The notes below the pieces were generated by a model. That model was not told the origin of the DNA, did no database searches, and saw only the letters and a list, made by a program, of their open reading frames with translations. The translations under genes were made by a program, and so were the position numbers. This document shows, piece after piece, positions 7,900 to 15,446 of a stretch of 64,000 bases of DNA (positions within the stretch are counted from its first letter, which is position 1; the number at the start of each line of letters is the position of its first letter). Source of the stretch: Candidatus Gastranaerophilales bacterium (GTDB taxonomy: Bacteria; Cyanobacteriota; Vampirovibrionia; Gastranaerophilales; Gastranaerophilaceae); contig CANQRH010000005.1 in assembly GCA_947626225.1 (NCBI GenBank), positions 62,001 through 126,000 on the forward strand, written 5' to 3'.

Positions 7900-8544
7900 T
7901 TAATTCCTTTCTATTTTTTCTTTTAATTCCTGAAGTTCATATTTCAAACGATTTAATTCACAGGTAACGGGATCGGGAATACGGTTGTGCATAAGAGTTT
8001 CGCTCATAACTTTTTGTTTTGTTATTTTACCCGGGACTCCCACAATCGTAGCGGATTCGGGAACATCTTCAATTACAACCGAGCCTGCGCCGACTCTTAC
8101 GTTATCACCGAGCGTAATATTACCGAGAACCTTTGCTCCGGCACCTACAATAACATTGTTTCCCAATGTCGGATGTCTTTTACCGTGGTCTTTTCCGGTT
8201 CCGCCCAGTGTAACCTGCTGGTAAATCAAAACATCATCGCCGATTTCTGCTGTTTCACCTATTACAACGCCTTCACCATGGTCTATAAAAAATCGTCTGC
8301 CGATTTTTGCGGCGGGATGAATTTCAATTCCGGTGATAATTCTTGTTATGTATGATATTATCCGCGGAATTAGAGGAATGTGCCATTTGTAAAGTCTGTG
8401 AGCCAGTCTGTATGCCGTTAAAGCATGAAGTCCCGGATAGCATAAGATTACCTCAAGCAGATTATTTGCAGCAGGATCCTTATCATAGATTACTTTAATA
8501 TCTTCTTTTACCTTTGTTATTCCGCGTTTTATAATTTCTATCAT
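7900..8544 (-). CDS. cysE: Serine O-acetyltransferase
   Basis: 214 aa. Acetyl-CoA plus L-serine gives O-acetylserine, the cysteine precursor. The N-terminal helices are short. The left-handed beta-helix begins near residue 75 with hexapeptide repeats ([31 protein letters not shown] in the family pattern). The catalytic region [10 protein letters not shown] and the [12 protein letters not shown] loop are present. The ATG overlaps the tyrS stop by 4 nt. Confidence 0.94.
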
Positions 8545-9761
8545 TTTACCAGTTTTGCAAATTTACGTTTACCTGCCTGTAATATTACGTTTTCGTCAAA
8601 GTTAAATACATAAGCCGTATCGGCAATTTTTTCACCGTTAACTTTAACACCTCCGCCTTGAATAAGACGTTTTGCTTCACCTTTGCTTGATGTAAATTCA
8701 AGTTCCGTCAGTACATCCAGAATACCTTTACGGTTCATATTTTTAACTTCTTTTATATCATCGGGAATACCTTTGTTTGAAACGACATTTATAAAAGCTT
8801 CCTGAGCTCTTTTTGCACCTTCTTCTCCGTGATATTCCGAAGTAATTGTAAAGGCAAGTTTTAATTTAATATCTCTGGGATTAACAGAGCCTTCTGCGAT
8901 TTGTTTATCGGTTTTCTCAAGTTCTTCTTTTGTTGCATCCGTTAGCAAGCTAAAGTATCTTGTAATAAGATTATCCGGAATGCTCATTAATTTTCCGAAC
9001 ATATCAACTTCGTTGTCTGTCAGAGAAATACAATGTTCGGGATATGTTTTAGACATTTTAACAACGCCGTCGGTACCTTCAAGCAAAGGTAAAAGCATTA
9101 CCAATTGCGGATATTTTTTGCCGTAAGCGGTTTGAATATCGCGTCCTAATAGGGTGTTAAATCTCTGATCCGTGCCGCCAAGTTCAATATCGGAATCAAC
9201 CGCAACGGAGTCATACGCCTGCATAAGCGGATAGAAAAATTCTACAATTGATATAGGACGTCCTTCATTGTATCTTTTTGCAAAGTCATCTCTTGTCATC
9301 ATTTGTGCAACGGTAACTTGCGCCGTAAGTTTCAAAAGTTCGGTAAAACTCATTGAATGAAGCCAGTCGGCATTATTAACAACTTCCGCATCGGAAACAT
9401 CCAAAACTTTTGACATTTGCTCAAAGTATGATTTTGCATTTTCCTGAACCTGCTCTTTTGTAAGTGCGGGGCGTGTTTCTGATTTGCCTGACGGATCTCC
9501 GACCATGGCTGTTGCACCGCCGACTATTAAAACAATTTTATGTCCGAGTTTTTGAAATTCTTTGAGTTTTCTCATTACGACGGTATGCCCCAAATGTAAA
9601 TCGGGACGTGTAGGATCCATTCCCAGTTTTATTCTTAAAGGGGTGTTTGTATCATGCGAATGCTGGAGTTTTACGGCGAGTTCTTCTATACCTCCGGGTA
9701 ATACTTCAGCGTTTCTTGTTAAATGTTTTGCCTGTTCAATAAATTCTTCTCTTATATCCAT
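8541..9761 (-). CDS. tyrS: Tyrosyl-tRNA synthetase
   Basis: 406 aa, class I synthetase. HIGH-type motif DLHLGHT at about residues 54-60, KMSKT near residue 235, and a C-terminal S4 RNA-binding domain (about residues 340-406, [17 protein letters not shown]). The insert and S4 layout match the TyrZ/TyrS-type enzymes of many bacteria. AGGAGA lies upstream of the ATG. First gene of a tyrS-cysE-small gene operon. Confidence 0.95.
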
Positions 9762-9806
9762 TGTAATTTCTCCTGAAGCTATTATACCGCAAAAAAATAT
9801 ATATTA

Positions 9807-9831
9807 AAAAACCGGTCAAAAACCGGTTTTT
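9807..9831. terminator. Bidirectional hairpin terminator
   Basis: Ten-base-pair perfect stem AAAAACCGGT / ACCGGTTTTT with the loop CAAAA, giving a T-run on both strands. It lies just after the stop of the tail-fibre cassette (minus strand) and before tyrS. Confidence 0.8.
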
Positions 9832-9835
9832 AATT

Positions 9836-10243
9836 TCAGCTGATTTGTGCAAGTTCATCACGCAATTTTTTAACTTCGGCGGTGTAATAATCAAGCCAGG
9901 ATGTATTTTCATCTTTTTGAGACGGTTCGGCAATTGCTCTGATTCGTTTGGTATCAAGCTTTTCAAGCTCGTATCTGATTTGGGAAGCCCGTTTTTCATT
10001 TTGAATTTGTAATTTTTTAGTTTCGGTTTCTTCCGGATTGAGTTTTTTCCATTTCCCGTTTTCAAATGAATATTCAGCTTCATCCGCGGCAATAACTGAG
10101 TTCTCATAAGGAATTATTCTTTTACCTTCACTTTGTGAATTTAACAGATAATCCCAATATGCATCGGTAATTTCAATTGCATTTTCAAAATTTTCTTCGT
10201 AAAATCCGTAATTTTTATTGTCTTTTGTTCCGTAATATTTCAT
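9836..10243 (-). CDS. Phage tail-fibre-assembly-like protein
   Basis: 135 aa. The N-terminus MKYYGTKDNKNYGFY and the C-terminal region (ELEKLDTKRIRAIAEPSQ, then TSWLDYYTAEVKKLRDELAQ) resemble phage tail fibre assembly/chaperone-type proteins. It sits 11 nt after a tail-fibre-like gene. A strong AAGGAGG precedes its ATG. No other phage gene is adjacent. The assignment rests on remembered sequence patterns and gene order. Confidence 0.6.
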   Translation of the reverse strand: MKYYGTKDNKNYGFYEENFENAIEITDAYWDYLLNSQSEGKRIIPYENSVIAADEAEYSFENGKWKKLNPEETETKKLQIQNEKRASQIRYELEKLDTKRIRAIAEPSQKDENTSWLDYYTAEVKKLRDELAQIS

Positions 10244-10254
10244 AAAAAACCTCC

Positions 10255-10956
10255 TTAATATCCGATTACAAAATAATTAGTAGACTTATAATTTCCTGTG
10301 GATCTGCAGGAAATACCTGTTAATGACTGTGATATAAGAAATGTATCTTGTGCACCGTAACCGCTTTGTCCCTGTTTGGTAAACAAAGGTACTGCATAAG
10401 TTTTATAAGCAAGAGGGTAAGTTATATCCCCCGGCATCCAATAACCCCATTGCAGTATTATACCGTTAGGAAATTTTAAATAACCATGAGAATTTATTGA
10501 AGATTTTCCCGTGGCGGAATTCCATTCGCTCCATACTGAGTTTTCGTAAGTTCGCGTAAAAATCTCCTTGTTTTCCCCGCCGTCAAACCAAATTTGTTTT
10601 ATGGCGGAATCTTCGCATCCGCTGACCATAAGTATTCCTTGAACAGCTTCTTCGGGGACATTTAAAGGGGTATAATCCGATTTAAATATGTAAGTACCGT
10701 TAGTTTTGTAATTATCTAAATCCGTTCCGGCTTCTTCCACCGTGTGTTCTTTGATTAATTCGGTTTTATCCGCTTTAGCTTCAAGCTCCTCATCAATAAG
10801 TTTGGTTAAAGTTTCTTTCAAACCCTCGACATCTTTGGATAATGAATCTTTATTGTTTGTAATGGTTTCTGCCAGTGCTATAAAGTTTGCATTGACTTCA
10901 TTTGCTTTGGCTTTTGTACCCGGGATAAACGAATAAGGTATCATTGAATTAGTCAT
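10255..10956 (-). CDS. Phage tail-fibre-like protein
   Basis: 233 aa. The N-terminus IPYSFIPGTKAKANEVNANF is typical of phage tail-fibre attachment regions. A predicted coiled coil follows (about residues 30-75). Then comes a pyocin-knob-like region (NYKTNGTYIF, IKQIWFDGG, VWSEWN, about residues 80-150). The C-terminal part begins GYLKFPNGIILQWGYW, typical of gp53-like fibre tips. AAAGGA precedes the ATG, and a good sigma-70 promoter lies at 11004-11033. Followed by the assembly-like gene and a terminator, forming a self-contained cassette. Confidence 0.75.
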   Translation of the reverse strand: MTNSMIPYSFIPGTKAKANEVNANFIALAETITNNKDSLSKDVEGLKETLTKLIDEELEAKADKTELIKEHTVEEAGTDLDNYKTNGTYIFKSDYTPLNVPEEAVQGILMVSGCEDSAIKQIWFDGGENKEIFTRTYENSVWSEWNSATGKSSINSHGYLKFPNGIILQWGYWMPGDITYPLAYKTYAVPLFTKQGQSGYGAQDTFLISQSLTGISCRSTGNYKSTNYFVIGY

Positions 10957-11003
10957 AGTTTTCCTTTCCGACTAATTTAATGAATATGTAAGGCGTTTAA
11001 CCG

Positions 11004-11033
11004 ATTATAACATACGATTGCAAAATCCGTCAA
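11004..11033 (-). promoter_or_regulatory. Sigma-70 promoter of the tail-fibre cassette
   Basis: On the minus strand TTGACG, an 18-nt spacer, then TATAAT, about 47 nt before the tail-fibre ATG. It overlaps the oppositely directed acpS promoter. Confidence 0.7.
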
Positions 11034-11052: not shown

Positions 11053-11394
11053 ATGGCAATTGGTGTGGATATTGAAGATATTTCAAGATTTAAAGATAAG
11101 CCGGATTCGTTTTATTCGCGAATATTTTCCGTGGAAGAAATTGAATACTGCAAAAGATTTCCCGAGCCCGAGGGACATTATGCCGTAAGGTTTTGTGCAA
11201 AAGAAGCCGTTATAAAGGCGTTAAGTGCTTTCGGAATTTCCGCCGTTCTTTCGGATGTTGAAGTTTTTCATGATAAAAACGGCTGTCCGCAAATTAAAAT
11301 TAATGAAAAACTGAATAAAAAAGTAAAATTTCAGCTGAGTTTATCTCATGACAAATCCAAAGCGGTTGCGTTTGTTATAGCCGAAGAACTGTAA
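11053..11394 (+). CDS. acpS: Holo-[acyl-carrier-protein] synthase
   Basis: 113 aa, usual length. It transfers 4-phosphopantetheine from CoA to acyl carrier protein. The metal-binding Asp lies in GVDIEDISRF (about residues 4-13), and the second signature is FCAKEAVIKAL (about residues 55-65). Its 3' end overlaps the convergent pheA gene by 49 nt. It has no Shine-Dalgarno; see the promoter at 11018. Confidence 0.93.
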   Translation: MAIGVDIEDISRFKDKPDSFYSRIFSVEEIEYCKRFPEPEGHYAVRFCAKEAVIKALSAFGISAVLSDVEVFHDKNGCPQIKINEKLNKKVKFQLSLSHDKSKAVAFVIAEEL

Positions 11395-13772: not shown

Positions 13773-15446
13773 ATGGGACTCGCAGCAGGACAAGCAAGAT
13801 TATTGACAATTACAGCCAGAAAATCTGACTGTGAATTTCAATCTATGCGATTGTCGCACCAAAAAATCGCGTTGGCGCGTGATTTGGCAAACTTGTCCAA
13901 TGAGTATCAAAATTCTTTAGATCAGACAAAATTGATTTACGATTACTACGGCAATGGTGACACAAGTAATGTTCTTACTTACAATACACTTATGACACCT
14001 TCCGTATTGAATGACTTTACACCCACGCTTGTAACGGACAGCATGGGCAGAGTTGTATTGAACAGTAAATATGCTGCAGCTGCACGCCAAGCCGGTATTC
14101 CGCAGGAAGGTTTGGGAACATTACCGTCTGAGGCTACGCGTAATAACTTTATACAGCAGTTAGCAGGCGTAGGATTAATAACGGATAAATTAGCACAATC
14201 TATACAGTCATTACCTTACAGCCAGCAGGCAGGCTTTGGCGGCGGTGCAACGGTTGTAAATAATATAGAAGATGTATCTTACGATGATTTGTTAAACGAA
14301 TATTTTGCAAATGTATCGGTCGGTGATATACTTAACGATTTAGAGGGCACCAAATATGAGTGGGATGAAGTCAATCATATGTCTGACAGATCAACAGCAC
14401 ATATACGTTCTCAAAATGATACCAATGATGATACTTTTGACCTTACCGAGAATGAATTAGGCAAATTAACATTAAAGGATTTGATAGATGGTGTTGACGG
14501 TAAGCATTATACAATATGGTTGGATGGTGATGACGGCGCAAACAATAGTGAAGCATACTTTAGATGTATTGGTAATATGGCAATTTGGGACAGATTGTTT
14601 GAGGCAATGTTTTCGGTATTAGATAACGGTACAAGTCAATCCGAACTTGCTTATAATTACGCGGTTACAACTTTTAAGGAAGAAATTCTTTCTTATAATT
14701 CCGATACAAATAGACCAACTACAGGCTGGCTTGGCGAACATAGCAGAAGAAGCGCTAAGAAAGTCAGAAAATGGGTTAGAGGGCAAACTAATAAAACAAA
14801 CGGTATTATTGTTGAGCGTAATAAACACAGTAAGTACAATACTTATGCAGGCATAAACCTTACCAACGCATTAAAACAATTCTTAACATACTACTATATC
14901 ATGGCAAACGGTTTTGCCAATAACAAAGATGCTTACGGTAACGATATTTACAAAGTTGCTACGGGATATAATTCACAGATAGTTGACAACAAATTTGTTG
15001 ATAGTAATGCAATTTTCCAAATAAGTACTGATGCATCGGTAAGCAGTGATGATTTGGCTCAAGCGGTATTTTATGACACTTTGTTTAACCAGATATGTGC
15101 TAACGGCTGGGTTGAAAATGAAAGAATTGAAGAACCGTCTTACTTGCAGGAAATGCTTCAAAGCGGCATGATGTTTATATCAAAACAGAAAGATGACTAT
15201 TTCTATTATCAATCAAATTATGCAACCGACAATTATATTAAAGAAATTGCCGATGAAACATTGATAGCAAAAGCGGAAGCAAAATATAACACCGAAAAAG
15301 CAAGACTTAATGCAAAAGAAGAAACAATCGATTTGAAGATGAAAAACCTTGATACGGAAATTTCTTCTCTGACTACCGAATATGATACGGTTAAGAATGC
15401 TCTTTCGAAGAATATTGAAAAATCATTTAAACGATACAGCGCTTAG
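13773..15446 (+). CDS. Clade-type protein with MGLAAGQARLL N-terminus (557 aa)
   Basis: 557 aa, no signal peptide or membrane segment. The N-terminal 50 residues (MGLAAGQARLLTITARKSD, then helical SHQKIALARDLANLSNEYQ) look conserved and helical. I associate this start with a multigene family in Gastranaerophilales and some uncultured gut bacteria; the function is unknown. The C-terminal 70 residues are a charged coiled coil (AKAEAKYNTEKARLNAKEE). Helical ends around a variable middle would suit a structural or secreted filament-like protein, but that is inference. AAAGGA precedes the ATG. A sigma-28-type promoter lies just upstream. Confidence 0.75.
   Translation: MGLAAGQARLLTITARKSDCEFQSMRLSHQKIALARDLANLSNEYQNSLDQTKLIYDYYGNGDTSNVLTYNTLMTPSVLNDFTPTLVTDSMGRVVLNSKYAAAARQAGIPQEGLGTLPSEATRNNFIQQLAGVGLITDKLAQSIQSLPYSQQAGFGGGATVVNNIEDVSYDDLLNEYFANVSVGDILNDLEGTKYEWDEVNHMSDRSTAHIRSQNDTNDDTFDLTENELGKLTLKDLIDGVDGKHYTIWLDGDDGANNSEAYFRCIGNMAIWDRLFEAMFSVLDNGTSQSELAYNYAVTTFKEEILSYNSDTNRPTTGWLGEHSRRSAKKVRKWVRGQTNKTNGIIVERNKHSKYNTYAGINLTNALKQFLTYYYIMANGFANNKDAYGNDIYKVATGYNSQIVDNKFVDSNAIFQISTDASVSSDDLAQAVFYDTLFNQICANGWVENERIEEPSYLQEMLQSGMMFISKQKDDYFYYQSNYATDNYIKEIADETLIAKAEAKYNTEKARLNAKEETIDLKMKNLDTEISSLTTEYDTVKNALSKNIEKSFKRYSA

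Follow-up and report, generated by a model that had tools for sequence, protein, structure and literature searches.

A pair of genes of phage type lies among housekeeping genes in the window, the whole stretch of 64,000 nucleotides analyzed here, which comes from a 1.59 Mb genome of Candidatus Gastranaerophilales in 12 contigs. One gene encodes a tail-fibre-like protein and the other, separated from it by 11 bases, encodes a putative fibre-assembly protein, called the helper below. Both are flanked by tyrS on one side and acpS on the other and have no further phage genes nearby, exactly as the original prediction had placed them. The features are:

8541-9761, minus strand: tyrS, one flank of the gene pair
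about 9806-9831, minus strand: terminator-like AT-rich hairpin 3' of the assembly gene
9836-10243, minus strand: putative fibre-assembly (chaperone-type) gene, 135 aa, from its PHROG 188 match and from relatives located directly 3' of phage fibre genes
10255-10956, minus strand: fibre gene, 233 aa, from the open reading frame and its translation
10258-10506, minus strand: Gp53-like or H-type-lectin-like tip, residues 151-233, from Pfam, PDB profile and fold match
10507-10758, minus strand: pyocin-like knob, residues 67-150, from PDB profile and fold match
10777-10905, minus strand: coiled-coil helix, residues 18-60, from the structure model
10852-10956, minus strand: constant anchor, residues 1-35 (MTNSMIPYSFIPGTKAKANEVNANF...), from conservation among relatives
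10960-10969, minus strand: ribosome-binding site GGAAAGGAAA ahead of the fibre start
11004-11033, minus strand: sigma-70 promoter TTGACG-18-TATAAT, 11 of 12 consensus matches, with TG before the -10 (extended -10)
11053-11394, plus strand: acpS, the other flank, divergent from the fibre gene

The promoter that had been proposed for the pair is well conserved. Upstream regions score 11 or 12 of 12 in 51 of 67 cases (25 of 31 sequences within the genus and 26 of 36 from other genera), where shuffles expect 0.5. By its appearance it would be a standing promoter of the plain sigma-70 type, unlike a late phage promoter. An AAAGG-type ribosome-binding site is retained in most relatives. The claim of a terminator holds in part: the hairpin is there, with a fold z of -2.42, but it falls outside the interval 9836-10956 to which the terminator had been assigned and was not called by the pattern scanner.

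Domains and fold of the fibre and its helper

Pfam, PHROG, PDB profiles and a structure model agree on a tail-fibre-like protein with an anchor, a coiled coil, a pyocin-like knob and a gp53-like tip, the architecture originally read from the translation. Pfam Gp53-like_C (PF21882) matches residues 161-233 (E 3e-5) with 24.9 bits, exactly the curated cut-off, and is also matched by 11 of 30 fibre relatives from other genera, at best with E 9.4e-15. A PHROG tail fibre family matches the window fibre with E 1e-8, and the genus fibre profile finds gp53 of phage AP22 (E 8.9e-7) and the R2 pyocin fibre knob (E 2e-4) in the PDB. The AlphaFold2 model (mean pLDDT 81.6, pTM 0.43, with residues 1-9 poorly predicted) consists of a helix at residues 18-60, a knob at 67-150 and a tip at 151-233. 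It aligns to the R2 pyocin fibre with a VIA Z of 11.8 over 165 residues, the rmsd of 50 resulting from a differing domain orientation. Fold comparison pairs the knob with fibres of pyocins, P68 and Mu; for the tip it returns gp53, the R1 pyocin foot and H-type lectins. The alignments to gp53 (4mtm; Z 8.8, rmsd 3.0, 81 residues) and of the tip to the H-type lectin Helix pomatia agglutinin (Z 6.3, rmsd 2.3, 66 residues) have Z values in the range of 6-9 that is possible from a common structural arrangement alone. The modeled fold suggests that the tip may be glycan-binding. No signal peptide or hydrophobic leader was visible by eye in the fibre and no export route was found for it. NCBIfam and the defence library PADLOC returned nothing for the fibre and helper pair.

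The helper matches PHROG 188 ‘tail fiber assembly’ with E 2.6e-5 over residues 1-66, which is the N-terminal half only, and the same family is matched by three of 16 helper relatives. It found no match in Pfam, nothing usable in the PDB search and no informative match in fold comparison, whose list includes no fibre chaperone, a result that weighs neither for nor against such a fold. The prediction of a tail-assembly-like gene is upheld by PHROG, and judged from sequence the identity of the helper is less firmly supported than that of the fibre. Among relatives, the gene after the fibre is nearly always a helper, mostly with a common C-terminal part, and varies together with the tip.

Distribution and chromosomal address

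Of the 33 genus genomes, 31 have a single copy of the fibre, among them all 27 of high quality, at 43-58% identity to the window copy. The two members without a match, G002 and G005, are both 89% complete; the G002 locus as read ends inside pheA, and in G005 no pgm was found and tyrS has other neighbors. A candidate second copy in the window's own genome was rejected, as the weak match is an SMC-like ATPase, which leaves one real copy. Searched across the order, the genus profile is matched in 150 of 383 genomes. With an anchor-only profile, 154 of the 383 genomes were positive (a single match in 148, two matches in six), representing 30 of 52 genera and leaving 22 genera with no match. Class-wide, 121 of 382 genomes match, with only three, all weak, lying outside the family. 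None of the listed fibre matches contains an internal stop. A DNA pattern for EVNANF occurs in 40 of 117 family genomes; since four of the 30 places read (L132, L133, L134 and L143) encode other proteins and one (L142) has no frame, the profile search was used for the counts. Where relatives of the locus bear names, these are mostly Candidatus Gastranaerophilales or Melainabacteria assemblies. One record labelled Fusobacterium sp. CAG:439 (L064) carries the fibre locus and is evidently a Gastranaerophilales genome.

In all 30 genus loci that were read, the helper is adjacent to the fibre and at least one of acpS, pheA and pgm lies beside the pair. No further phage gene was recognized between the pair and its housekeeping neighbors at these loci, nor any larger phage block. 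Among 66 named loci, 65 adjoin pgm/pheA/acpS and/or tyrS/cysE within 4.5 kb: both flank groups are present in 46, tyrS/cysE only in nine, and pgm/pheA/acpS only in ten, several of which end at a contig boundary; the exception with neither is L111. In 30 further loci of 3 kb, a flank is within reach in 21 and not in nine, of which at least four are not fibres. The original prediction had proposed looking for the IPGTKAKANEVNANF start elsewhere, and the outcome is a sequence with hardly ever more than one copy, located mostly at this address wherever flanks are within reach. No copy broken by a stop appeared among the listed matches and no larger prophage at the 30 loci; disrupted copies and a larger prophage at the site were what the prediction had named as evidence against itself.

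Empty sites were found in the genus g5. In G077 and G087, pheA is directly followed by tyrS, at distances of 40 and 19 bases, and the sister species G058 and G074 carry the pair between these same two genes. In most other fibre-negative genomes examined, tyrS and pgm have other neighbors. Its absence from many sister genera and from two g5 species indicates that the pair is dispensable.

A 557-aa protein starting MGLAAGQARLLTITARKSDCEFQSM (window 13773-15446) belongs to a family that recurs near the fibre locus in relatives (also L089 and L096), and a minus-strand gene of about 180 aa, with a start like MxISFTGIRNASYI, recurs between the helper and tyrS/cysE in L077, L085, L088, L098 and L109. 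The best TyrS in six genomes (L196-L201: G110, G108, G105, G002, G130 and G089) is just 32-36% identical to that of the window, which looks like a replacement by a tyrosyl-tRNA synthetase of a different type.

Constant anchor, exchanged tips and phage counterparts

Measured as open frames, fibre length varies between about 190 and 600 aa. The anchor is strongly conserved: a comparison of 24 sequences, each of 40 aa, from many loci shows 11 invariant columns. The tips joined to it, compared over the C-terminal 110 residues of 65 proteins, belong to at least three unrelated classes, with 47, 12 and 4 members, plus two singletons, one of them truncated. Between close species pairs, the DNA is mostly 85-98% identical in the upstream region and the anchor and drops to about 40-60% in the tip. 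Where the alignment extends that far (L080/L081 and L105/L106), identity recovers to about 80-90% within the helper gene or beyond it; the drop is also seen in L100/L101, is weaker in L061/L064 and is not clear in L091/L095. In L080/L081 the dS is 0.10 for pgm versus 2.3 behind the anchor. The drop in three close pairs is allelic tip exchange by recombination.

The fibre is under purifying selection. In 13 of 15 hand-picked close pairs dN/dS behind the anchor is 0.05-0.27 and the remaining two are saturated; many dS exceed 1, and such values are rough. A check of conservation and selection, also suggested originally, thus gives a conserved anchor, exchanged tips and constrained protein sequence. 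Within the genus, fibre distance tracks that of pgm and cysE (rho 0.65 and 0.73, Mantel p 0.001), nearly as well as the acpS control does (rho 0.76 and 0.78); pgm and cysE served as distance yardsticks and pheA, with some frames mis-set, was left out. Since the fibre follows species history almost as closely as acpS, tips within the window's genus are mostly inherited.

Phages share parts of this gene pair. The whole window fibre has no match in the viral contigs, and the phage records contain seven partial matches, covering the knob and part of the tip at 31-35% identity, and none for the helper gene or the 40-aa anchor. Using other fibres as queries, that of L080 matched 12 viral contigs and those of L105, L109 and L076 none. 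Five viral contigs (L260, L261, L265, L266 and L267) carry same-type tips followed by helper relatives, the helper likeness being judged by eye. The helper gene itself matched 28 viral contigs; in 23 of these an open reading frame, often a tail-collar-type fibre, ends at most 50 bases upstream, and the upstream frames in L287 and L295 match chromosomal tips. The anchor is absent from all of these viral contigs, the best scores being 8.0 bits in the helper-search set and 4.3 bits in the L260 set. Because phage fibres share tips and helpers without the anchor, what sets the chromosomal gene apart is a constant anchor of another kind, combined with a tip and helper of phage type.

The anchor was detected, at 36-51 bits, in 15 other viral contigs, which hold its closest relatives found outside the family. 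In L115, L118 and L120 the anchor protein is located directly behind a virion-protein-like gene. Two of the viral contigs, L113 and L114, combine the anchor with a tip type known from the chromosomal locus, and L113 also has a helper relative. There, a 744-aa fibre with collagen-like repeats (L113 9992-13711) ends in a match to the third-class chromosomal tips, and the anchor is on a short protein of 200 aa, near this tip-bearing fibre but separate from it. The third-class tip and the helper relative are hints of a related host.

Possible roles and known relatives

The gene pair is an intact, mostly single-copy, address-fixed and tip-exchanging fibre with its helper, located outside any recognized phage. 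That the anchor is kept and the tip swapped suggests that the bacterium, not a virus, is now the user of the fibre. We put at about even the chance that the Gastranaerophilales cell has domesticated a fibre module of phage origin and now uses it as a stand-alone fibre that binds glycans and swaps its tips. In this reading the helper would act like the fibre-assembly proteins of phages and fold the trimer, and the anchor would attach to a single, conserved cellular partner. The tip could bind a glycan of gut mucus, food or neighboring bacteria, so that the fibre would work for the cell as a lectin-like adhesin, either bound to the surface or released, and new tips may alter its specificity. Of the domesticated adhesin named in the original prediction, domestication is supported by the data, and we infer the adhesin part. 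Speaking against domestication, the pair is dispensable, no export route was found, and such strong conservation of the anchor suggests that it docks on a partner, which on phages is the tail.

An alternative that we judge unlikely is a fibre that binds receptors on behalf of a particle whose other genes lie at another place in the genome, such as an unrecognized, fixed tail-like particle or gene transfer agent, or of resident prophages. A phage fibre requires an anchor and a helper, an anchor that stays the same implies that its partner does too, and the gene transfer agent of Rhodobacter does have some fibre genes outside its main cluster. However, the window's own genome contains no contractile sheath, baseplate J, TP901-type tape measure or HK97-type portal (PF04860), and these occur in just five, six, six and one of the 33 genus genomes, respectively, yet 31 have the fibre. 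The search covered those four families, with control genomes positive each time, and its result applies to particles built with them. The contractile prophages of G001, G017 and G026 (loci L165, L167 and L168) have their own fibre of 716-720 aa, a helper-sized gene and an amidase-like gene, and these fibres start with a sequence marginally similar to the anchor (8-12 bits). The plain sigma-70 appearance of the promoter also seems to disagree with late expression of the phage kind. Within the families searched, these observations do not support the cassette for a tailocin or prophage elsewhere that was originally considered. Separately, Mu-like contractile prophages are sporadic in the genus (L165-L170). 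They line up genes for a large fibre, a helper-like protein of 104 aa and an amidase-like protein, and over its full length the L165 fibre matches a PHROG family whose members are equally long.

The viral relatives of the anchor raise a different, rather improbable option, in which a constantly made host fibre enters the tails of infecting phages instead of or beside their own, so that the progeny are misdirected or poorly infectious. Its appeal is that the nearest anchor relatives outside the family are proteins of those 15 viral contigs, that L113 and L114 bear a locus-type tip (with the L113 helper relative), that the tip types are common to phages, and that the promoter is strong and standing. 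Weighing against such an anti-phage role, the L113 anchor protein is a short one and not the tip-bearing fibre, and the defence library gave no match. About as improbable is a variant in which infecting phages take up a standing stock of fibre made by the cell, with an anchor fitting the tails of its own phages, which resets the host range of their progeny and protects kin, the tips being copied from phages; it would be a defence that retargets virions.

We regard it as very unlikely that the pair is a passenger, a fibre cassette repeatedly recombining into the site with phage DNA at no benefit to the cell. The clean presence and absence in g5 and the tip types common to phages would fit this, but passengers decay, and the pair is intact and conserved: near-universal in the genus as one copy with open frames, under purifying selection, and with its promoter and anchor preserved. 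The prophage relic of the original prediction, a simple remnant of a decayed phage as phage-type domains without other phage genes nearby might imply, can practically be dismissed, given purifying selection and the same two genes in the same place at 30 genus loci with no further phage gene, intact in 31 of 33 genomes.

A literature search on tail fibres, tailocins and solitary or domesticated fibres in Gastranaerophilales, Melainabacteria or Vampirovibrionia, with subscription titles mostly outside its scope, returned nothing relevant (PMC6591296 is irrelevant in its accessible part). The locus amounts to a natural catalogue of paired tips and helpers. Domestication offers a testable guess at how Gastranaerophilales may stick to hosts, food or neighbors, loading of the fibre onto infecting phages would, if true, be a new kind of defence, and the partner of the anchor is a concrete target.

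In pyocins, a fibre gene is followed by an assembly gene, and the fibre has a constant N-terminus and a variable foot. The R-type pyocin fibre resembles the window fibre in having a knob followed by a lectin-like foot in the same order, a lectin fold being described in the accessible part of PMC6363177. Unlike the R-type pyocin, the window genome lacks sheath, baseplate J and tape measure genes, and its fibre is just 233 aa long with a 35-aa anchor and its own promoter amid housekeeping genes. The Gp53 fibre of AP22 (PF21882, 4mtm) shares the C-terminal tip domain, but its anchor and shaft differ and the window fibre is not on a phage. The streptococcal proteins PblA and PblB are of tail origin. 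They are encoded by a phage (prophage SM1) and serve the bacterium as surface adhesins, according to the accessible parts of PMC4508584 and PMC2920869. In contrast to these proteins, which remain within prophages, the window fibre is outside any recognized phage, fixed in the genus and tip-swapping. The Mu-like contractile prophages (L165, L167 and L168) resemble the locus in placing a helper next to the fibre and, marginally, in the N-terminus of that fibre, but their fibres are 716-720 aa long, inside tail operons and sporadic. The known cases of domesticated phage parts are whole tails, injection machines or transfer agents; here a receptor-binding fibre has apparently been kept alone, at one address in many genera of an uncultured gut lineage, with its tip exchanged as in phages and pyocins.
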